A DNA stretch of 42,671 bases. Origin: an uncultured Bacteroidales bacterium. GTDB taxonomy: Bacteria; Bacteroidota; Bacteroidia; Bacteroidales; Paludibacteraceae. This document shows, in pieces, positions 14,306 through 42,419 of the stretch. Within the stretch, counting starts at the first letter, position 1. Each line of letters begins with the position of its first letter. Made by a program: the position numbers and the translations under genes. The notes under the pieces are model-generated. The model was given only the letters and a program-made list of their open reading frames with translations. It was not told the DNA's origin and ran no database searches. The stretch spans positions 1 through 42,671 of the forward strand of contig CALZOG010000008.1 of assembly GCA_945827635.1 (NCBI GenBank), in the 5' to 3' direction.

Positions 14306-14587
14306 ATGACTTCCAAGTGGGATAACTTTTGGCTCGGACTGCTGGCGGGGCTTATTCTGCCGGCATTGTTTTGTCTGGCATATGCGCATACCATCAGTCT
14401 GGATCACCTGTGGCAGGGGGGAATGTTTCAGACCCTCAGACCTGTGATTGGGCGTATGGTGCTGCTTGGCACGTTTGTCAACATGGCAGCAACATTCGTG
14501 CTGTATGAGTTCAACCTGTGGAAACTTGCCAAAGGACTGATTGTGGCCGTTGTTCCGTATATGGCCGCCGCCATTATCCTCCTTTGA
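14306..14587 (+). CDS. Small three-helix membrane protein, unknown function
   Basis: The 93-residue protein has three hydrophobic segments: FWLGLLAGLILPALFCLAYA (about 8-27), MVLLGTFVNMAATFVLYEF (about 51-69) and LIVAVVPYMAAAIILL at the C-terminus. It lies 24 bp after surE and 44 bp before lpxB. A short membrane protein between surE and lpxB is familiar in Bacteroidales, but I know no function. No catalytic or binding motif is visible. Confidence 0.8.
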   Translation: MTSKWDNFWLGLLAGLILPALFCLAYAHTISLDHLWQGGMFQTLRPVIGRMVLLGTFVNMAATFVLYEFNLWKLAKGLIVAVVPYMAAAIILL

Positions 14588-14631
14588 TTACTAAATTTAC
14601 GCTGTCGGGCGCACCCGACCTTTCGACTCAT

Positions 14632-15777
14632 ATGAAGTATTTCCTCATAGCCGGTGAAGCCTCTGGCGACATGCACGCCGCCCGACTTATTACTGCCTTG
14701 CGCCAGCGCGACAGCAAAGCTGTCATGATCGGCTTGGGCGGTGACAAGATGCAGGCTGCAGGCTGCAGGCTGTATCAGCACTACAGGAATATGGCTTATA
14801 TGGGTTATGTGGCTGTACTGACTCACCTGAAGGATATACGCACAAACATCCGCATTGCCGAGCAGGCATTGCTCAGCGAGTGCCCCGACGAACTTATACT
14901 GATTGACTATCCGGGCTTCAACCTGCATATAGCACAGTTCGCCAAGCGCCACCTGCCTGACACGCGCGTTACGTATTATATACCGCCAAAGATCTGGGCG
15001 TGGAAACGTTGGCGTGTGCACTCCATAGGCAAGTATTGCGACCGTATATTGGGTATTTTTCATTTCGAGCCTGACTTTTACGCCCGCTACGGTTACACTT
15101 GCACCTACGTTGGCAACCCCACTGCCGAAGCTATCGCTGACTACACCCAAGCAACGCAACCCTCAAACAGCGAAGCGCTCAAACCTTCAAACAGCAAAGC
15201 ATCCGACAGCATAGTTCTCCTCCCCGGCAGCCGCAGACATGAGATAGAAAACTGCCTGCCTAAGATGCTTCTGGCTGCGGAGCAGGCTATCAGCGATTTG
15301 CCGGACATACGCACGATAGTTGTCACGCAGGCACCGGGCATAGAGCCGCAAGTATATGAGCGGTTATGTGCCGATCATCCACTGGTACAACTCACCACCG
15401 ATACCTACGCTGCTGTCTGCAGCGCACGAGCCGCAATCGTCAACTCGGGCACAGCCACACTGGAGACAGCGCTGTTAGGCTGCCCGCAAGTGGCAGTCTA
15501 TCATCTGGCTTTCGGACATCTGTTGGGATTGTTGCGGCCGATCATGTTCCAGATACCGCATTTTACGCTGGTGAATATAGTTGCCGGGCGCGAGGTTATT
15601 CGCGAACTGCTGGCGTACGAGTTTACCGTTGAGGCTACTCGCGACGAGTTACACCGTCTGCTGACCGACAGCAATTATGTAGCCGCCATGCAAACCGGCT
15701 ATTTGGATGTGCAACGGCTCTTAGGCACCTCACGTGCTGCAGAGGCGGCAGCCGAACAAATCATCGGGAAAGTCTAA
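14632..15777 (+). CDS. lpxB: Lipid-A-disaccharide synthase
   Basis: The track ORF opens upstream at 14518 inside the previous gene; the family start is MKYFLIAGEASGDMHAARL at 14632 (381 residues). Further LpxB signatures are IDYPGFNLHIA, YIPPKIWAWK, HFEPDFYARYGY, YVGNPTAEA and the nucleotide-sugar motif LLPGSRRHEI. The enzyme joins UDP-2,3-diacylglucosamine to lipid X to form the lipid A disaccharide at the inner membrane. Residues about 176-190 (PSNSEAL-KPSNSKA) are a two-unit repeat at the junction between the two Rossmann halves. The KPSN repeat also occurs in the CPBP protease of this window, so it looks like inserted repeat DNA. The gene is convergent with trmO, 3 bp apart. Confidence 0.95.
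   Translation: MKYFLIAGEASGDMHAARLITALRQRDSKAVMIGLGGDKMQAAGCRLYQHYRNMAYMGYVAVLTHLKDIRTNIRIAEQALLSECPDELILIDYPGFNLHIAQFAKRHLPDTRVTYYIPPKIWAWKRWRVHSIGKYCDRILGIFHFEPDFYARYGYTCTYVGNPTAEAIADYTQATQPSNSEALKPSNSKASDSIVLLPGSRRHEIENCLPKMLLAAEQAISDLPDIRTIVVTQAPGIEPQVYERLCADHPLVQLTTDTYAAVCSARAAIVNSGTATLETALLGCPQVAVYHLAFGHLLGLLRPIMFQIPHFTLVNIVAGREVIRELLAYEFTVEATRDELHRLLTDSNYVAAMQTGYLDVQRLLGTSRAAEAAAEQIIGKV
15160..15200 (+). repeat. Two 17-bp direct repeats (24-bp period) inside lpxB
   Basis: CCCTCAAACAGCGAAGC at 15160-15176 and CCTTCAAACAGCAAAGC at 15184-15200 are 15/17 identical. The 24-bp period keeps the frame and encodes PSNSEAL-KPSNSKA. The unit CCTCAAAC resembles the 8-bp array in the CPBP protease gene. 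Confidence 0.65.
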
Positions 15778-19442: not shown

Positions 19443-19497
19443 CGATTAATAAATTGTGTTCGGAATACGCGATTAATAAATCTTGTTGAGAATACGG
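19443..19497. repeat. Duplicated 3' end of adk
   Basis: GATTAATAAATCTTGTTGAGAATACG, the last codons of adk including its stop, is repeated with four changes directly downstream as GATTAATAAATTGTGTTCGGAATACG. The period is 28 bp. The second copy lies in the adk-obg gap, which otherwise holds a degenerate ATCAGCCAA palindrome at 19428-19446. Confidence 0.65.
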
Positions 19498-20048
19498 CTG
19501 ATGCGGCCGAAGATCTCGCTGATCGTACCGAGTCCCTGGATACGTGCGTACTTGTCGTGGAGCTCGTAATAGTCGTCCACGGGACGCGTCTGCTCATGAT
19601 AGACCACGAGGCGCTCTTTGATTGTCTCCAGATTGTCGTCGGCACGTCCGCTGATCTTGCCGCGCTCAATCAGGCGGCGTATGAGTTCGTCCTCAGGCAC
19701 ATTGATGTCAATCAGTATAGCTGTCTCGTCGCCACGCTTCTTCATCAAGCGTTCGAGTTGTACGGCTTGATTCAGCGTACGGGGGAAACCGTCAAAGATC
19801 AAGCCCTTGGTATCCACCGGCAAACGATCGATGTACTCCTCGAGCATTCGGATCGTTATGTCATCAGGAACAAGATGTCCCTGCGAGGTATAGGATTCAA
19901 TCAGTTTGCCAAGTTCACTCCCCGAAGCCGCTTCCTGGCGCATCATTTGCCCCGTGCTCAAGTGAACCAAACCATAGTGAGCAACAATAAATTCCGCCTG
20001 AGTACCCTTACCGCACCCGGGAGCGCCGCATAAAATGATATTCTTCAT
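19473..20048 (-). CDS. adk: Adenylate kinase
   Basis: The 191-residue protein begins MKNIILCGAPGCGKGTQAEFI, with the P-loop GAPGCGKGT, and continues with HLSTGQMMR, DGFPRTLNQAVQLE (conserved DGFPR) and a short lid region (LIERGKISGRADDN), so it is the short-lid form common in Bacteroidota. It interconverts ATP and AMP with ADP in the cytoplasm. It heads the adk-obg-clc-trmO run. A heptamer array of seven units ends 3 bp before the start codon. No promoter of the usual type was found between it and the HU gene. Confidence 0.96.
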   Translation of the reverse strand: MKNIILCGAPGCGKGTQAEFIVAHYGLVHLSTGQMMRQEAASGSELGKLIESYTSQGHLVPDDITIRMLEEYIDRLPVDTKGLIFDGFPRTLNQAVQLERLMKKRGDETAILIDINVPEDELIRRLIERGKISGRADDNLETIKERLVVYHEQTRPVDDYYELHDKYARIQGLGTISEIFGRISRILNKIY

Positions 20049-20051
20049 AAT

Positions 20052-20100
20052 AGTCGCTAGTCAATAGTCGAAAGTCAATAGTCGAAAGTCGAAAGTCTTT
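20052..20100. repeat. Seven-unit heptamer array upstream of adk
   Basis: AGTCGCT, AGTCAAT, AGTCGAA, AGTCAAT, AGTCGAA, AGTCGAA and AGTCTTT are in exact 7-bp register. On the coding strand of adk they end just before its ATG. The same AGTCGAA unit is found inside btuB, btuG and the CPBP gene. Confidence 0.85.
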
Positions 20101-22872: not shown

Positions 22873-22916
22873 AACTAAAGAAGAACTAAAGAAGAACTAA
22901 AGAAGAACTAAAGATT
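22873..22916 (+). repeat. Four tandem 11-bp repeats, AACTAAAGAAG
   Basis: AACTAAAGAAG occurs three times and is followed by AACTAAAGATT. The array lies in the 390-bp gap between the lipoprotein terminator and tRNA-Pro, which otherwise holds only the tRNA promoter. Confidence 0.85.
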
Positions 22917-23091
22917 ATCTAAAAAGAATTGCGAAACGATGCAGGGTAGAATACGGGTTGGGAGAGAGAAACAGGGGGGAAAATGCGACCAATAGTGAGT
23001 AGTACATGCAACATAGAAAGGGAAGAAATGCAACCAACAATGCACAAATACGCATAAATTGCAAGAATTTCGATATTTTTTATCGGAATAA

Positions 23092-23467: not shown

Positions 23468-25153
23468 TTACATAGAGACAGTATTAGGGTCGGCTGTGAC
23501 TGCCGGGGCAGCAGTGGGATTCTGATCAGGAGTGACTGCCGGGTCGGCAGTGGGATCCTGATCAGGAGTGGCGGCCGGGGCGGCAGGGAGGTTTGGATCA
23601 GGGGTGAGACCTTTGTCGGCGGCGAGGCGGAGGAGGAACGCGACAGCGGCATCGTGGTCGTTGGGGATAATGCCGTCGAGGATAGCATCCTTGATAGCCG
23701 ACTTGAGTTCTCCCACGAGCGAGCACGGCTCGAGATGGAACATCTGCATGATCTCGTCACCCATCACAGGCGGCTGGAAGTTACGAATGCGGTCGCGCTC
23801 CTCGAGTTCGACCATCTTACGCATGACGAGTTCGTAATTGTCGTGGTAGCGCTTGACTTTGTTCTGGTCGCGCGAGGTGATATCCGCGTTGCAGAGGAGC
23901 ATAAGGTCGCCGATGTCATCGCCCGCCTCGAACAGCAGGCGGCGTACGGCACTATCAGTGACCGTCTCCTCAATCAGGTTGATAGGCCGCATGTGCAGAT
24001 CGACCATCTTGACAACATAATCCATCTTCTCGTTCTGCGGGAGCTTGAGTGCCTTGAAGATGCGCGGGACCATCTTTGCGCCTATATAGTTGTGGTTATA
24101 GAATGTCCAGCCGACCTTGGGTTCGAACTTCTTCGATTTGGGTTTGCCTATATCGTGAAGGAGAGCAGCCCAGCGGAGGAATAATAGACTATCCTTCGGA
24201 CTGTTAGACCGCTGACGCGGAGAGACCGTTTCACTGCCAGACCGCTGACGCTCAAAGTCAAAAGACTGCTGTTGGTGTTGCAGTTCGGCAACGTTATCGA
24301 GGACCTTGAGGGTATGGTAGAAGACATCTTTGTGTGCACGGCCGTTGACTGTTTCCACGCCTTTGAGTGCAGCCAGTTCGGGGAAGATGATCGGCAGCAA
24401 GCCTGTCTTGTCGAGCAGCAACCAACCCTCGGACGGTCGGCGCGAGAGCATGATCTTGTTCAGTTCGTCGGCTATACGCTCGCGCGAGATGATACGTATA
24501 CGCTCGCGGTTGCGCGCGATAGCATCGAAGCACTCGCCTGTGAGATTGAAGCCGAGTTGGGTGGCAAAACGTATGGCGCGCATCATACGCAGGGGATCGT
24601 CGCTGAAAGTGATATCGGGGTCGAGCGGTGTTTGAATGATACAGTCCTCCAGGTCGTACCATCCGTCAAAGGGGTCGAGCAGTTCGCCGTATCGGTCGTG
24701 GTTGAGGCAGATAGCCATGGCGTTGATGGTGAAGTCGCGGCGGTTCTGATCCTCCTCGAGCGTTCCGTCCTCCACGATAGGATTACGCGAGTCGTGGCGG
24801 TAGCTCTCCTTGCGTGCGCCTACGAACTCGAGTTCGGTATCCCCCTTCTTCACCTGGGCAGTGCCGTAGGTCTTGAAGATAGAGAGGTGTGCACCTTTGC
24901 CCAGACGCTTGGCAACAGCCTCGGCGAGGAGGATCCCCCAGCGCGGAGCCTCGGAGTCACTACGATCAGCCATGCATGGCTGATGGGTGGAGACCGGTTG
25001 GACAACAACAATATCGATATCCTTGCTTTCGCGGTGGAGGAGGAGGTCGCGCACCCAGCCGCCGACTACGTAGCAGTCGATACCGAGCTTGTCGGCTTCT
25101 TCGCCCACGAGCTTGAGAATGGGATTCTGTATTTTAGGGTCTGTGATTATCAT
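23468..25153 (-). CDS. CCA tRNA nucleotidyltransferase / poly(A) polymerase-like protein with HD domain
   Basis: The 561-residue protein has the class II nucleotidyltransferase head (YVVGGWVRDLLLHRESKDIDIVV, GTAQVKKGDTELEFVGARKESY, RRDFTINAMAICL), the RNA-binding middle (RAIRFATQLGF) and an HD domain (WAALLHDIGKPKSKKF). It adds or repairs tRNA CCA ends, or extends RNA 3' ends; tRNA-Pro next door lacks encoded CCA, so CCA addition is needed in this organism. Three parts look inserted. Residues about 52-72 (QPVSTHQPCMADRSDSEAPRW) contain a 20-bp DNA palindrome and interrupt the head. Residues about 295-326 (QQQSFDFERQRSG...NSPKDS) carry a 13-bp direct repeat before the HD motif. The tail from about 516 is a 12-residue repeat (VTPDQNPTAAPA-like). 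All are in frame, so the enzyme is probably intact. Confidence 0.93.
   Translation of the reverse strand: MIITDPKIQNPILKLVGEEADKLGIDCYVVGGWVRDLLLHRESKDIDIVVVQPVSTHQPCMADRSDSEAPRWGILLAEAVAKRLGKGAHLSIFKTYGTAQVKKGDTELEFVGARKESYRHDSRNPIVEDGTLEEDQNRRDFTINAMAICLNHDRYGELLDPFDGWYDLEDCIIQTPLDPDITFSDDPLRMMRAIRFATQLGFNLTGECFDAIARNRERIRIISRERIADELNKIMLSRRPSEGWLLLDKTGLLPIIFPELAALKGVETVNGRAHKDVFYHTLKVLDNVAELQHQQQSFDFERQRSGSETVSPRQRSNSPKDSLLFLRWAALLHDIGKPKSKKFEPKVGWTFYNHNYIGAKMVPRIFKALKLPQNEKMDYVVKMVDLHMRPINLIEETVTDSAVRRLLFEAGDDIGDLMLLCNADITSRDQNKVKRYHDNYELVMRKMVELEERDRIRNFQPPVMGDEIMQMFHLEPCSLVGELKSAIKDAILDGIIPNDHDAAVAFLLRLAADKGLTPDPNLPAAPAATPDQDPTADPAVTPDQNPTAAPAVTADPNTVSM
23497..23604. repeat. Three tandem 36-bp repeats encoding the Pro/Ala-rich tail of the CCA enzyme
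   Basis: Units at 23497-23532, 23533-23568 and 23569-23604 share the frame TGRCKGCCGGG...CAG...GATCAGG. The first two are almost identical and the third is diverged. They encode 12-residue repeats at the protein end. Confidence 0.85.
24206..24251. repeat. 13-bp direct repeat within the CCA enzyme gene
   Basis: AGACCGCTGACGC occurs exactly at 24206-24218 and 24239-24251, 33 bp apart (11 codons), inside a Ser/Arg/Gln-rich stretch that the family normally lacks. Confidence 0.65.
24965..24984. repeat. Perfect 20-bp palindrome inside the CCA enzyme gene
   Basis: ATCAGCCATGCATGGCTGAT is fully self-complementary. It lies in the 21-residue stretch that interrupts the nucleotidyltransferase head. 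Its outer 8 bp on each side match the palindrome at 1239-1258. Confidence 0.8.
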
Positions 25154-35963: not shown

Positions 35964-38111
35964 ATGAAACGTTCGCTGTTTTTCATAGTGTCTTTTGTTG
36001 CGTGCACTGCTGTTCAGGCAGAAGCCTACCCCCTGCCCATATCTGAAGGGAAGGGAGCGGAGTTGGATAGTATTGTACGGCAGTTCAGTATTGATGAAGT
36101 GGAGGTGACTGCACGCCGGCGCGAGGAGCCTGTTATACCTGTGCAGACGCTCAGCGGTGCGCGGCTGGAGGGTCTATCCACGCAGAGCGTGGCGGATGCG
36201 GCACGGTACTTCTCGGGCGTGCAGATCAAGGATTATGGCGGTGTGGGCGGCATGAAAACGATTGACGTGCGTTCGATGGGTACGAACCACTTGGGCGTGT
36301 TCTACGACGGCATAGAGATCGGCAATGCGCAGAACGGGACAGTCGATCTGGGCAAGTTCTCGATGGACAATATAGAGGAGATAGCGCTATACAACGGTCA
36401 GAAGTCAGAGATCTTCCAGCCCGCCAAGGATTTCGGCAGTGCCGGTACACTATACATCAAGACCCGCCGCCCGAAGTTCACACCGGGCAAGAACTACAAC
36501 CTGAGCATCACCATGAAAGCCGGCACATTCGGGCTGGCTAATCCCTCTATCCTGTACGAGCAGAAACTGACGGACAATATCCATCTGTCGGCAAGTGGCG
36601 AATATACATACGCCCACGGGCGTTATCATTTCCGTTACCGCAGGGTACTGCCGAGCGGTGCAGTGGCGTGGGACACGACCGCAGTTCGTCAGAACGGCGA
36701 TGTGCAGGCAGGCAGAGCCGAGGTCGGGCTGTTCGGGTATCTGCCCGAAGGCAAGTGGCACGTGAAGGGTTACTACTACCAGAGCGAGAAAGGTATACCC
36801 GGAGCGATAGTGAACAATGTATGGACGAACAGCCAGCGGCAGTGGGACAGAAACGCCTTTGTGCAGGGCAACTACACCCAACGCATCGTGAGAGGTTACG
36901 ACGTGCAGGTGAACGCCAAGTACAGCAACGACCGCATGCGTTACCTCAACCCTGATACCACGCTGATGTATATCGACAATACGTTCACCCAACAGGAGGT
37001 GTATATGAGTATGGCGCACCGGGTAGCCCTGTTAGGGCAGCAGTCTGTATTCAGCCATCAGCCATCAGCTGTGAACTGGGACGTCTCGCTCAGTGCCGAC
37101 TGGCTGTGGAACTACCTGGAGGGAAACCTCGCCAACTTCGTTTATCCCGAGCGGAACACCGTTCTGGCAGCAGCCGCTACGCAGCTCTACTGGAAGTACC
37201 TGAAGGCACAAGCCTCGGTGCTCGGCACGTTCATCTTCGACAAGATCCACCAGCCCACTATCGCCACTCCGACCGCCTACAAGCAGAAACCGCAGTTCAC
37301 GCCGGCGGTGTTTGTGAGTTATCAGCCTGTCCTGAGCGAGGAGCTCTTCCTGCGCGCCTATTACAAACGCATCTTCCGCATGCCGACGTTCAACGACCTG
37401 TACTACACCGATGTGGGAAACATCTCTCTTCTGCCCGAATACACGACCCAGTACAATGGTGGTGTGCAGTACGACAAACGCTGGCAGGAAGGTGCGTGTC
37501 GCGCAGTGAGCGTGAAGGCGGACGGATACTTCAACCAGGTGAAGAACAAGATCGTAGCTATCCCCAAGGGCAACGGTCAATACCGCTGGCAGATGCTGAA
37601 CCTCGGGTATGTGGAGATACGCGGCTGCGACGTGAATGCCTCCGGCACGTTCGACCTGACAAACGAGGTGCTGCTGACTGTAGCCGCAGCGTACACCTAC
37701 CAGAAGGCACAGGACTTTACCGACCCGGGCGAGCTGACCTATGGCGGACAGATAGCCTATATCCCGTGGCACAGCGGCAGCGCGACGATAAACCTGCAAT
37801 GGAAAGGACTGAGTGTAAACTACGCGTTCATCTATGTGGGCGAGCGCTACCACAACAGCGCGAATATACCTGCCAACCGCGAGCAGCCGTGGTACACGCA
37901 TGATGTGAGCATATCATATGATATGCCGATTAGTCGAAAGTCAAAAGTCGATAGTCGAAAGTTGATAGTCGAAAGTCGAAAGCCAAATTACTCTCCGCGG
38001 TTATACTTTGCGGTGGAGATCAATAACCTGTTCAACCAGCAATACGAAGTTATACTCAACTACCCTATGCCGGGTATCAACGGGAAAGGAATAATACGAA
38101 TAACCATTTAG
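35964..38111 (+). CDS. btuB: TonB-dependent outer-membrane cobalamin receptor
   Basis: The 715-residue protein has a signal peptide (MKRSLFFIVSFVACTAVQAEA), a TonB-box-like FSIDEVEVTARR, a plug domain (about 45-165: LSTQSVADAARYFSGVQIKDYGG, IDVRSMGTNHLGVFYDGIEIGNAQNG) and a beta-barrel to the end (RITI-stop). It is the outer-membrane pore for vitamin B12 uptake, driven by TonB; substrate is inferred from the B12 riboswitch directly upstream and btuG downstream. Two oddities: the residues after the signal peptide (AYPLPISEGKGAE) are encoded by an element shared with the agaS leader, and residues about 656-673 (SRKSKVDSRKLIVESRKP) by a perfect array of seven heptamers, inserted before one of the last barrel strands, probably in an extracellular loop or turn. 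Confidence 0.94.
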   Translation: MKRSLFFIVSFVACTAVQAEAYPLPISEGKGAELDSIVRQFSIDEVEVTARRREEPVIPVQTLSGARLEGLSTQSVADAARYFSGVQIKDYGGVGGMKTIDVRSMGTNHLGVFYDGIEIGNAQNGTVDLGKFSMDNIEEIALYNGQKSEIFQPAKDFGSAGTLYIKTRRPKFTPGKNYNLSITMKAGTFGLANPSILYEQKLTDNIHLSASGEYTYAHGRYHFRYRRVLPSGAVAWDTTAVRQNGDVQAGRAEVGLFGYLPEGKWHVKGYYYQSEKGIPGAIVNNVWTNSQRQWDRNAFVQGNYTQRIVRGYDVQVNAKYSNDRMRYLNPDTTLMYIDNTFTQQEVYMSMAHRVALLGQQSVFSHQPSAVNWDVSLSADWLWNYLEGNLANFVYPERNTVLAAAATQLYWKYLKAQASVLGTFIFDKIHQPTIATPTAYKQKPQFTPAVFVSYQPVLSEELFLRAYYKRIFRMPTFNDLYYTDVGNISLLPEYTTQYNGGVQYDKRWQEGACRAVSVKADGYFNQVKNKIVAIPKGNGQYRWQMLNLGYVEIRGCDVNASGTFDLTNEVLLTVAAAYTYQKAQDFTDPGELTYGGQIAYIPWHSGSATINLQWKGLSVNYAFIYVGERYHNSANIPANREQPWYTHDVSISYDMPISRKSKVDSRKLIVESRKPNYSPRLYFAVEINNLFNQQYEVILNYPMPGINGKGIIRITI
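36021..36057 (+). repeat. Element shared with the agaS leader, in the btuB 5' coding region
   Basis: GAAGCCTACCCCCTGCCC...ATCTG followed directly by AAGGGAAGGGAG matches both ends of the minus-strand element at 2465-2557, with the hairpin-bearing middle missing. It encodes EAYPLPISEGKGA just after the signal peptide. Confidence 0.65.
37932..37980 (+). repeat. Seven-unit heptamer array inside btuB
   Basis: AGTCGAA, AGTCAAA, AGTCGAT, AGTCGAA, AGTTGAT, AGTCGAA and AGTCGAA fill exactly 49 bp. Translated, they give a 7-residue rhythm (SRKSKVD-SRKLIVE-SRKP). Confidence 0.9.
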
Positions 38112-38122
38112 CTATAATTGAT

Positions 38123-39361
38123 ATGAAGCTATGCAGAAAAGTCGAAAGTCGAAGACACCCCACTGCGCGCATTGCTTGTGGGGCCCCCGTACAGTCGAAA
38201 GTCGAAAGCCTAATTAGTCATTACTGTTTGAGCGTCTGGGGTCTTTTGACTTTGAGCGCAGTGGTCTTATTTACCTGCTGCCGCCACGATGAGCCTGTCA
38301 TTCCTGTGGAAGAGGAGCAACACGGCGATACCGTGCGTAATGAGATAACAGGCTTCTATCTGCTCAACGAGGGCAACATGGGCAGCAACAAATCGACGCT
38401 CGACTACTACGATTACACCACCGCCACCTACCGCCGAAACATCTACGCTGAGGCGAACCCCGATGTACCGAAGGAACTGGGCGATGTGGGCAACGACCTG
38501 AAGATATACGGCAACAGGTTATATGCCGTGATCAACTGCTCGAACAAGGTGGAGGTACTCGACGCGCGAACGTGCAAACGTATCGGGCAGGTGAATATAC
38601 CCAACTGCCGGTACATAACCTTCGACGGCAAGTATGCATACGTCACCTCGTACGCCGGTCCGGTGTCGCTGGACGCGAGTCATGCGCAGATAGGTTACGT
38701 GGCACGGATCGACACGGCCACCCTGCAGATTGACAGCACCTGTCTGGTAGGCTACCAGCCGGACGAGTTGGCAGTAGCTAACGGCAAACTGTACGTAGCT
38801 AACTCCGGCGGATACATGGTGCCGGATTACGACAGCACGGTGTCGGTAATTGACCTGAAGACCTTCAAGCAGACCAAACGTATCACCGTGGCAAAGAACC
38901 TCTGGCGGGTACGCACCGACCGGCAGGGACAGTTGTGGGTCAGTTCGCGAGGCGACTACTACGGCACACCTGCCAAACTCTACTGCATCGACCCGGCTAC
39001 CGACCAAGTAACAGACTCGATCAGCATTGCCGTGTCGGCGATGGATATATCCGGCGACTCGCTCTACGCCTGTGCCACCGCGTGGGATTATATCCACTAC
39101 GAGGACGTAGTGACCTACTCTATCATCAACACCCGCACGCACGAGGTGGTGAGCACGCGATTCATCACTGACGGCACGGAGACGCAGATACAGAAACCCT
39201 ACGGCATAAAGGTTCACCCCGTGACGCACGACATGTATGTAACCGATGCCAAGAACTATGTCAACCCCGGAATGTTGCACTGCTACGGTTCAGACGGCAT
39301 ACTCAAGTGGTCGGTGCGCACGGGAGATATACCTGCGCAGATAACGTTTGTATATCAATAG
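38123..39361 (+). CDS. btuG: BtuG-like surface cobalamin-binding beta-propeller lipoprotein
   Basis: The 412-residue protein has YncE-type beta-propeller repeats over about 75-410: TGFYLLNEGNMGSNKSTLDYYDY, YGNRLYAVINCSNKVEVLDART, GYQPDELAVANGKLYVANSGG, STVSVIDLKTFK, KPYGIKVHPVTHDMYVTDAKNYVNPG. BtuG proteins of gut Bacteroidota bind B12 on the cell surface and cap BtuB; the gene follows btuB by 11 bp under the B12 riboswitch. A lipobox (LSAVVLFTC-C) is present, but it lies about 50 residues from the start. The long N-region (MKLCRKVESRRHPTARIACGAPVQSKVES) is encoded by two pairs of AGTCGAA heptamers around a CCCCAC/GTGGGG hairpin. Either the signal peptide has been stretched by insertion, or translation starts later, for example at a TTG near 38227. 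Confidence 0.9.
   Translation: MKLCRKVESRRHPTARIACGAPVQSKVESLISHYCLSVWGLLTLSAVVLFTCCRHDEPVIPVEEEQHGDTVRNEITGFYLLNEGNMGSNKSTLDYYDYTTATYRRNIYAEANPDVPKELGDVGNDLKIYGNRLYAVINCSNKVEVLDARTCKRIGQVNIPNCRYITFDGKYAYVTSYAGPVSLDASHAQIGYVARIDTATLQIDSTCLVGYQPDELAVANGKLYVANSGGYMVPDYDSTVSVIDLKTFKQTKRITVAKNLWRVRTDRQGQLWVSSRGDYYGTPAKLYCIDPATDQVTDSISIAVSAMDISGDSLYACATAWDYIHYEDVVTYSIINTRTHEVVSTRFITDGTETQIQKPYGIKVHPVTHDMYVTDAKNYVNPGMLHCYGSDGILKWSVRTGDIPAQITFVYQ
38140..38210 (+). repeat. Heptamer pairs around a hairpin in the 5' part of btuG
   Basis: AGTCGAA occurs twice at 38140-38153 and twice at 38193-38206. Between them CCCCAC...GTGGGG can form a hairpin. The block encodes the unusual N-region of the BtuG signal peptide. 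Confidence 0.75.
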
Positions 39362-39473
39362 TTGAGAGTTGAGAGTTGAGAGTTGAGAGAAGTCTTATAG
39401 TTGAAAGTTGAGAGTTGAAAGTTGAGAATTGAGAGTTGAGAGAAGTCTTATAGTTGAAAGGTAATAGTTAAAC
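39361..39473 (+). repeat. Composite heptamer array between btuG and the next gene
   Basis: Four GTTGAGA units, the 11-mer GAAGTCTTATA, then GTTGAAA, GTTGAGA, GTTGAAA, GTTGAGA, ATTGAGA, GTTGAGA, the same 11-mer again, GTTGAAA, GGTAATA and GTTAAAC. It starts on the last base of the btuG stop codon and ends 3 bp before the next ATG, so the whole gap is repeat. Confidence 0.9.
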
Positions 39474-39476
39474 GTG

Positions 39477-40529
39477 ATGAAAAAGATAGTTTACATAGCA
39501 ATGATACGTGTGGTGGTTGCATTGCCGCTGGTGGCGCAGAACAGCCCGTACCTGACGCGTGTATATGAGTATGTGCCTGCACCCGGGCAGTTTGTGAACA
39601 CATTGCCGGAGTATGAGCCGGGCGACGATATGGATGCTATGTGCCGCAAGGTAGAGGAGCAGATTGCCGCTAACAACGGCGGTATGATCACCTTGGGCGG
39701 CTGGGGAGGATACGTGGTGTTCGGTTTTGACCACCCGGTAGTGAACGTAGCCGGCGAGTACGACCTGATCGTTGAGGGCAACGCGTTCTACTCGAGCAGC
39801 AAGCAGGGAGCAGCCGGCGGAGGCAGTTGCGAACCGGGGATAGTGCTGGTGAGTGTGGATCAGAACGGCAACGGCAAACCCGATGACGAGTGGTACGAAC
39901 TTGCCGGTTCGGAATATACTAACCCGCTGACCGTTCACGGCTATAGCGTTACCTACGAGCGTCCTGACGACAGCCATGTTGCCACGCCGGACAAGGATAC
40001 GAAGTACCGCACGGACACGACGTACATTCGCTGGACGGACAACCGGGGTGCAAGCGGATATGTGGAGAAGAACAGTTTTCACAAGCAGCCGTACTACCCC
40101 GAGTGGGCAGAGACCGATGCATTGACGTTCAGCGGTGCTCGACTGCCGGACAACTACGCGTGGAAGAACAACCAGTACGTACTCTACCCGTACGCCTACG
40201 GTTATGCCGACAACCACCCCGATACTACTCCCGAGGCACAGCTGAACATCGACTGGGCTGTACGTGCCGATGGCACGCCCGCAATGCTCAGGCAGATAGA
40301 TTTTGTGAAAGTATATACGGCATTGCACCAGCAGTTGGGTTCGATTGGCGAGACGTCCACCGAGATTAAGGGCGCACGCGACCTGCACCCCGAGGCAACC
40401 ATAGAGACAGATGTCAGAAGTCAGATGTCAGAAGTCAGATATCAGAAAGTGCTGCGCAACGGGCAACTGCTGATCATGCGCGATACAGAAGCATTTAATC
40501 CTATAGGGACTAAAATATACAATTATTAA
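39477..40529 (+). CDS. Surface protein of the B12 locus with sorting-type tail
   Basis: The track starts at a GTG (39474); the ATG at 39477 gives MKKIVYIAMIRVVVALPLVAQ, a signal peptide, and 350 residues. The body (VYEYVPAPGQFVNTLPEYEPGDD, LGGWGGYVVFGFDHPVVNVAGEYDLIVEGNAF, NGNGKPDDEWYELAGSEY) matches a family I know only as Bacteroidota 'cell surface protein' in B12-type loci; its role is unknown, perhaps helping BtuG or BtuH capture. The Asp-rich DQNGNGKPDDE segment suggests calcium binding. Residues about 312-324 are a heptamer array (VRSQMSEVRYQ) placed just before the tail KVLRNGQLLIMRDTEAFNPIGTKI, so slippage there would change whether the sorting tail is made. Probably in one operon with btuB and btuG. 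Confidence 0.83.
   Translation: MKKIVYIAMIRVVVALPLVAQNSPYLTRVYEYVPAPGQFVNTLPEYEPGDDMDAMCRKVEEQIAANNGGMITLGGWGGYVVFGFDHPVVNVAGEYDLIVEGNAFYSSSKQGAAGGGSCEPGIVLVSVDQNGNGKPDDEWYELAGSEYTNPLTVHGYSVTYERPDDSHVATPDKDTKYRTDTTYIRWTDNRGASGYVEKNSFHKQPYYPEWAETDALTFSGARLPDNYAWKNNQYVLYPYAYGYADNHPDTTPEAQLNIDWAVRADGTPAMLRQIDFVKVYTALHQQLGSIGETSTEIKGARDLHPEATIETDVRSQMSEVRYQKVLRNGQLLIMRDTEAFNPIGTKIYNY
40413..40447 (+). repeat. Five-unit heptamer array before the sorting tail of the 39477 protein
   Basis: GTCAGAA, GTCAGAT, GTCAGAA, GTCAGAT and ATCAGAA are in exact 7-bp register in the coding sequence. Gain or loss of one unit shifts the frame before the C-terminal tail. Confidence 0.85.
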
Positions 40530-41477: not shown

Positions 41478-42419
41478 CTAACGCACAACTCTCCGGAAGG
41501 CGTACATCTGCAGAATCATCAGCGGCGTACAAACGAGTGTGAGCCACCATGTGTGCTCGGTGCCGAGTGCATCGATCTGCTCCTGCGACATATCCCACAC
41601 ATACGTGCCGAGGTAGAACAGCAGCACCGACAGGGCATTGTTCGTGCCGTGCATGATCATGCTGTAGCGGATGTTGCCACTCCATAGCAGCGCGTAGCCT
41701 AACAACGCGCCTAACAGCAGTCGCGGTATGAACCCATAGAACTGAAAGTGTATGAACGAGAAGATGAAAGCTGTCACCCAGACTGCCAGGTGAGGGTTTG
41801 AGGGTTTGAGGGTCTGAGGGTTTGAGGGTTTGAGAGTTTGAGGGTTTGAGGGTTGACCGTACAGGAGTTGCTGTAGCACGCCGCGGAACGTCAGTTCCTC
41901 ACCTATGGCGGGTAGCACGGCGAGCACAAGCAGATTCAGCAGCAGCACCCACCATGCGCCGTTACCGTAGGTAAGGAACTGCTGCTGCAGCAGCGCGTTG
42001 GCTTGTGCTTCCATCTGTTGCATCAGTTGCTCCAGTCCGCGCAGACTCTCCGGCAGACGGATCTGCTCGTTCCAGCTCACTATCAGGTTGATCAGCGGCA
42101 AGGCTGTGAGCATTATACCTATACTGAGCAACACCAACCGCCCTGTCTTTCGACTTTCGACTATCGACTTTCGACTATCTACTATGCGCAGCCACTCTAA
42201 CGGCCGTTCGCTCCATAGGTAAGCCACAACTATCGCGGGCACAATGAACAGACCTATAGCCTGCAGCGCCTGCAACAGCAGCAGCGCGCCTGTCGAAGCG
42301 TGATGGATAGGAAGCACCTGCCACAGGGCGAACACTACTGCCGTGCATACAACCATGATCAGCAACCACTCCGCAGCCTTCAGCAGCGGATGAAGATCTT
42401 TATGTCGAGCTTTAAGCAT
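41478..42419 (-). CDS. CPBP-family intramembrane glutamic protease
   Basis: The track starts at 42572, but the first 51 residues lie across the promoter. MLKARHKDLHPLLKAAEWLLIM at 42419 is the better start, giving 313 residues. About seven hydrophobic segments are present. The catalytic motif EExxxR appears as IGEELTFRGVLQQLL, and further His motifs as FSFIHFQFYGFIPRLLLGALLG and MIMHGTNNALSVL. The family (also called Abi/CAAX-like) cuts within the membrane; substrates are unknown. Two repeat arrays are in frame: residues about 77-91 (VDSRKSIVESRKT) from heptamers and about 188-209 (PSNPQTLKPSNPQTLKPSNP) from eight 8-bp units, both in loops between membrane segments. The gene is convergent with the btuB operon. 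Confidence 0.9.
   Translation of the reverse strand: MLKARHKDLHPLLKAAEWLLIMVVCTAVVFALWQVLPIHHASTGALLLLQALQAIGLFIVPAIVVAYLWSERPLEWLRIVDSRKSIVESRKTGRLVLLSIGIMLTALPLINLIVSWNEQIRLPESLRGLEQLMQQMEAQANALLQQQFLTYGNGAWWVLLLNLLVLAVLPAIGEELTFRGVLQQLLYGQPSNPQTLKPSNPQTLKPSNPHLAVWVTAFIFSFIHFQFYGFIPRLLLGALLGYALLWSGNIRYSMIMHGTNNALSVLLFYLGTYVWDMSQEQIDALGTEHTWWLTLVCTPLMILQMYAFRRVVR
41791..41854. repeat. Eight tandem 8-bp repeats inside the CPBP protease gene
   Basis: Eight exact-register units of TGAGGGTT (with one TGAGGGTC and one TGAGAGTT) fill 64 bp. On the coding strand they give (QT)LKPSNP repeats. Gain or loss of one unit would shift the frame. Confidence 0.92.
42147..42188. repeat. Heptamer array in the CPBP protease gene
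   Basis: CTTTCGA, CTTTCGA, CTATCGA, CTTTCGA, CTATCTA and CTATGCG are, on the coding strand, the same AGTCGAA/AGTCGAT family as in btuB, giving DSRKSIVESRK. Confidence 0.85.

Follow-up and report, generated by a model that had tools for sequence, protein, structure and literature searches.

The peptide that a CPBP/Rce1-like membrane protease (DSRKSIVESRK) and a TonB-dependent BtuB-like receptor (DSRKLIVESRK) have in common is, in both proteins, the translation of an (AGTCGAW)n tandem array, and it is probably the read-out of a dispersed heptanucleotide satellite that is copied, changes its length by slippage and survives selection in loops. Both genes lie in the window, the whole stretch of 42,671 bases that was analysed, which belongs to a ruminant-type Paludibacteraceae bacterium (genome G000, 2.07 Mb). 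The relatives of this host are rumen and gut MAGs, many of them named Paludibacteraceae; the genome G007 (RUG324) represents a close relative in the same genus. The two genes and their arrays are:

35964 to 38111, plus strand: gene of the TonB-dependent BtuB-like receptor (PF07715; TIGR01779 at 5.7e-21, under its cut-off)
37931 to 37987, plus strand: heptamer array (AGTCGAW)n in btuB, peptide SRKSKVDSRKLIVESRK (TRF; orthologous site of G007 without array)
41478 to 42419, minus strand: gene of the CPBP/Rce1-like membrane protease with two different arrays (ORF; PF02517 at 6.3e-19; orthologue alignments)
42147 to 42185, minus strand: heptamer array (AGTCGAW)n in the CPBP gene, peptide IVDSRKSIVESRK (TRF; orthologues; AlphaFold2 model)
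41791 to 41854, minus strand: period-8 array (TGAGGGTT) in the CPBP gene, peptide (PSNPQTLK)n (TRF)

The original prediction had traced the common peptide (its CPBP site placed at 42147–42188) to one repeat DNA, and this is borne out, as both sites are AGTCGAW arrays of a single dispersed family. The proteins themselves are unrelated, belonging to distinct Pfam families (PF02517 versus PF07715), and species without the repeat also lack the corresponding segments of CPBP and BtuB. In the alignments, array-free CPBP orthologues have a short first loop that does not contain the heptamer segment. The BtuB site of G007 carries no array and has flanks that are 94–95% identical to those of G000, but it is not a clean empty site because it is locally diverged as well. 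That the peptide is a motif conserved in both proteins, or that they match by chance, in favour of which only the shortness of both peptides speaks, has a negligible probability in view of the unrelated families and the periodic DNA, and was rejected because the segment is absent from orthologues.

The heptamer is present throughout the genome. In the window, 13 runs of at least 9 bases match themselves at a lag of 7, versus 0.2 in shuffled sequence. The three-unit pattern AGTCRWWAGTCRWWAGTC has 233 overlapping matches on many contigs of G000, versus 10 for its reversed version, which served as the control of the genome-wide search, and extrapolation from the 27 clusters found among the first 100 matches gives about 60 places for this AGTC family. 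A literal 33-base pattern, which is not the true repeat unit, had no matches. Base-by-base reading of 371 kb of G000 (about 18% of the genome) identified 79 places with heptamer arrays, compared to 2–7 after local shuffling. The main unit is AGTCGAA, with AGTCAAA and AGTCGAT as variants, and the AAAGTCG, ACTATCG and AAAAGTC classes, which make up the AGTC family, account for 37 of the 79 places. Outside arrays, single AGTCGAA is at background (48 copies versus a mean of 45.7 per 7-mer). Of 151 congeners sampled, 91 contain the pattern; counts range from 0 to 233, and many congeners have none at all. Across the wider order, 28 of 295 genomes contain it, counting G130 and the genome from which the window comes; a few of these are very rich, for example G219 with 508 matches of AGTC variants. 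These repeats thus display all three traits of dispersed heptanucleotide tandem repeats (LSSR/STRR-like): tandem 7-base units above chance, one unit at many unlinked loci, and a copy number that varies between relatives.

Could such arrays have arisen purely by local slippage from a 7-mer already present at each site, heptamers being the favoured slippage length and nothing moving? In many bacteria, long simple repeats are most often heptamers, for which slippage has been put forward as the reason (Mrazek 2007, to the extent cited in PMC4679880). Congruent with this idea, the period spectrum of the 371 kb of G000 and of 400 kb of G007 read in the same way peaks at 7 and then at 8 and 11, congeners differ in array length by multiples of 7 or 11, and the 79 array places of G000 comprise 28 units, many of them minor. 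Against it stand the share of one unit family among the array places while its single word remains at background, the recurrence of that unit in the majority of the sampled congeners, and the fixed phase of the 3′ ends, where AGTCGAA is the last unit in 18 of 19 arrays of G000. As the AGTC family is abundant only in the form of arrays, it is not accounted for by slippage starting independently at random seeds, and we regard local slippage as the sole source of the arrays as unlikely.

The dominant units of G000, G015, G077 and other genomes share GAAA plus three bases (GAAAGTC, GAAAACT, GAAAGGT, GAAAGTT), and this common form may hint at a shared priming or slippage rule. Period 11 is enriched in G000, G007, G009 and G011, and in the window period-11 arrays of AACTAAAGAAG and TTAGTAGGTGA are found at 22873–22928 and 2866–2923.

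According to gene calls made by a simple home-made hexamer-based gene finder, genes contain more than half of the arrays, and nearly all of these intragenic arrays are oriented in one way. The intragenic AGTC arrays of G000 and G007 are sense in 29 cases and antisense in 2, and those of G130, G110, G115 and G009 are sense in 11 and antisense in 1. Counted by gene, with orthologues entered once (arrays common to G000 and G007 being non-independent observations), the ratio is 24 sense to 2 antisense (binomial p about 1e-5). Intergenic arrays of G000 show no bias relative to the downstream gene (8 forward, 9 reverse). Furthermore, units that create a TAG when read in the sense orientation make up 12 of 136 in sense arrays versus 52 of 161 in intergenic arrays (p 9e-7). 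Both the sense bias and the stop depletion are most simply read as selection on the encoded protein.

The intragenic arrays are spread across all three frames (8/10/11). Because 7 equals 1 modulo 3, every frame reads the same polar cyclic heptapeptide, SRKSKVE, so that no special frame is needed and a period of 7 is easily tolerated in genes. The insertion in the same frame that had been proposed for CPBP and BtuB is therefore correct for these two genes but is not a requirement; the constraint falls on orientation. Likewise, the two arrays are indeed on opposite strands of the window, but both are sense relative to their own gene.

Some intergenic arrays are located 3–15 bases from a start codon, as would be expected of regulatory sites bound by a protein or an RNA, a function that has been proposed for the TAACTGA repeats of Beggiatoaceae. 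The location of more than half of the arrays within genes, the absence of an orientation bias in intergenic arrays, in contrast to the forward bias in Beggiatoaceae (PMC4679880), and the many congeners that do without arrays make a regulatory role very improbable.

The tolerance of the repeats inside genes, as originally predicted, is not confined to CPBP and BtuB. The 3-dehydroquinate synthase AroB carries about 20 extra residues between GHTIGHAIE and PHG, compared to about 5 in the S. aureus structure 1xag. In LepA (elongation factor 4) of G110, an array is located in the G domain ahead of LIDTPGH, and about 60 residues of the 2-oxoacid:ferredoxin oxidoreductase alpha subunit of G115 are encoded by an array. 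Further arrays are found in a cytochrome c assembly protein, a tRNA synthetase, a glycosyltransferase and an MBOAT protein. The G115 alpha subunit (L273 1214–3358) contains repeats of two families, LIINNEQLTS and SKVESQK, in one protein.

In the AlphaFold2 model of the CPBP protease (mean pLDDT 88.5), both arrays map between helices, onto low-confidence loops comprising residues 85–95 (heptamer) and 196–216 (period 8). In the first loop, G007 also has heptamers, with a hairpin core within them. The second loop, which in G000 consists of the period-8 PSNPQTLK repeat, is formed in G007 by an AGTCGAA heptamer array with the peptide SRKSKVESR. A red deer MAG has IVESRKLKVESQ in this second loop, G015 has SQQLRAN repeats, a goat MAG has RQQSAVSSQRSAVS and five further species have VKGERLK-type peptides, while in some others the loop is nearly empty; overall, the repeat peptides of other species in the CPBP loops include VKGERLK and SQQLIAN. 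In the GGTGAAA-type arrays found in the CPBP genes of five species, the TGA codon expected of a pure array is avoided, with TTA in its place in 9 of 10 loops.

Heptamer arrays of this and other units (AGTTGAG, CAGAAGT, GTTGAGT and others, identified by TRF) are also present elsewhere in the window:

20049 to 20097, plus strand: intergenic heptamer array directly before the gene at 19473–20048 on the minus strand (TRF)
38138 to 38213, plus strand: composite of heptamers, a CCCCAC...GTGGGG hairpin core and heptamers in the N-terminal part of a DUF5074 gene (38123–39361) (TRF)
39360 to 39460, plus strand: array of the related unit AGTTGAG that overlaps the end of the DUF5074 gene (TRF)
40408 to 40447, plus strand: array of the unit CAGAAGT inside the gene at 39474–40529, peptide RSQMSEVR (TRF, ORF)

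Repeats of other kinds accompany them. In the lipid-A-disaccharide synthase gene lpxB (14584–15777), a 24-base repeat at 15156–15202 encodes QPSNSEALKPSNSKAS and is akin to the period-8 TGAGGGTT family, of which the sample holds 17 runs. A 36-base repeat at 23496–23607 encodes the Pro/Asp-rich tail of the gene at 23468–25153 and differs by one unit in G007. Partly self-complementary repeats of 16–24 bases of the type CAGACCGCTGCGCTGACAGAAGA are intergenic in G000 and G007 (L083 1753–1842; L085 9635–9745). At a near-clean presence/absence site, G007 has ATTTACGATTTACGATTT (C20:69404–69421, L065/L066 region) versus a single ATTT in G000 (L085:13125–13136), so that the two genomes differ by 14 bases gained or lost between copies of a 4-base word.

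Orthologous heptamer arrays of G000 and G007 differ in length by 7, 14 and 21 bases, the sole clean intragenic heptamer indel measures 21 bases, and the intergenic site at 20049–20097 is occupied in both genomes by arrays of different length. Arrays would thus lengthen and shorten in 7-base steps, probably by replication slippage. A loss of MutS as the cause is not supported, as MutS is present in 16 of 16 genomes tested. The scope of slippage theory, as far as it is cited in PMC4679880, includes such length change but not the spread of one unit or a fixed 3′ end. The latter reads GTCGAAAG in 28 of 51 arrays; the 5′ ends are less sharply defined, and a search for conserved flanks outside the arrays returned nothing but this 3′ boundary. 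For the AGTC family, neither a clean empty site with an insertion junction nor a dispersal event was observed.

To account for the presence of one unit at many sites, we propose that the AGTCGAA family has been copied around the genome by a copying step, which is needed because one unit has spread so widely and whose trace would be the fixed 3′ end GTCGAAAG. Our best guess for this step is ectopic template switching or else conversion between arrays. Provided that its length is suitable, an insertion would be tolerable in any frame, and arrays would persist where selection permits: in either orientation between genes and, within genes, almost only in sense, in loops and at termini, with few stop units.

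A dedicated enzyme might instead have made the arrays, for example a telomerase-like reverse transcriptase such as DRT10, which uses an RNA template to make tandem-repeat DNA (PMC12632851), or a Y1 transposase of the REP type that acts on a hairpin. Uniform units and a fixed 3′ end would suit templated addition, for which DRT10 sets the precedent, and a hairpin core, CCCCACTGCGCGCATTGCTTGTGGGG, has heptamer arrays on both sides in the DUF5074 gene of the window (38152–38192) and in the CPBP loop of G007 (L032 1762–1803). No resident reverse transcriptase (RVT_1) was matched in G000, G007, G009 or G022, although the examined genomes are 80–100% complete and an absent gene could lie in the missing part. 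The Y1_Tnp match is sub-threshold in G000 and G007 and absent in the repeat-rich G079, G115 and G158, so Y1 transposases do not track the repeats. The 26-base core, moreover, has one copy per genome and no family within 3 mismatches in G000 and G007, whereas a REP/RAYT system has a multi-copy hairpin. We therefore consider a dedicated enzyme quite unlikely, more so than local slippage. The position of the core at different loci in G000 and G007 would be explained by either inter-array exchange or loss from a multi-copy ancestor. A looser relative of the core is found in G007 amid AGACCGC repeats (L066 around 12825).

Rickettsia palindromic elements are dispersed palindromes of about 100–150 bases without tandem structure that reside inside protein genes, where readthrough adds a segment to the protein at positions that tolerate it. 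The analogy to these elements drawn in the original prediction applies to lifestyle: the heptamers, too, are inserted in frame in unrelated genes (CPBP, BtuB, AroB, LepA and others) and are absent from orthologues. It does not extend to structure, as the present repeats are tandem heptamers with no palindrome, the sole hairpin core being short and single-copy. On our best reading, the closest relatives of the arrays are the dispersed heptamers of Xanthomonas, Nostoc and Beggiatoaceae.

The TAACTGA direct repeats of Beggiatoaceae, some Cyanobacteria and five Bacteroidetes (MacGregor 2015, PMC4679880) are mostly intergenic and forward before start codons, and their forward unit has stops in all frames. 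Like the present arrays, they are dispersed heptanucleotide direct repeats with a patchy distribution among relatives, Bacteroidetes included, and some are found inside reading frames, mostly at protein ends (PMC4679880). In contrast, AGTCGAA and its variants are a different unit, about half intragenic and in sense, with a stop-free main unit and intergenic copies that lack the forward upstream orientation. The G-rich heptamers GGGAATC of Xanthomonas and GGGGA(C/T)T of Nostoc (PMC4692102) similarly constitute one genome-wide family of variable copy number. They are G-quadruplex-capable, occur preferentially as four units and, inside genes, are under-represented on the coding strand (PMC4692102), whereas AGTCGAA has no G-runs and its intragenic copies are almost exclusively on the coding strand. 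Both the TAACTGA and the Xanthomonas/Nostoc heptamers are mostly non-coding (PMC4679880, PMC4692102). The dominance of heptamers and the enrichment of periods 8 and 11 in the present genomes also resemble long simple sequence repeats, which have units of 5–11 bases, predominantly heptamers, in what PMC4679880 cites of Mrazek 2007. Dispersed heptamers are already known; the present case differs in the unit, its intragenic share, the sense bias and the lineage-specific units in the same loops. A search of the available literature found no account of such repeats in Paludibacteraceae.

Identical short peptides in unrelated proteins of MAGs can therefore be repeat read-outs and not a sign of homology. 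The CPBP protease provides a natural series in which one loop holds at least five different repeat units across species, so that loop tolerance and the origin of new protein segments can be tested. Throughout the genus, simple heptamer satellites have entered conserved proteins instead of remaining intergenic. It is conceivable, and we put it forward tentatively, that active copying carries a lineage-specific heptamer to new sites with the fixed 3′ end ...GTCGAAAG, that units succeed one another in the same tolerated loops, and that the proteins of the genus, core enzymes among them, may in this way keep acquiring polar linkers that are compatible with coding.
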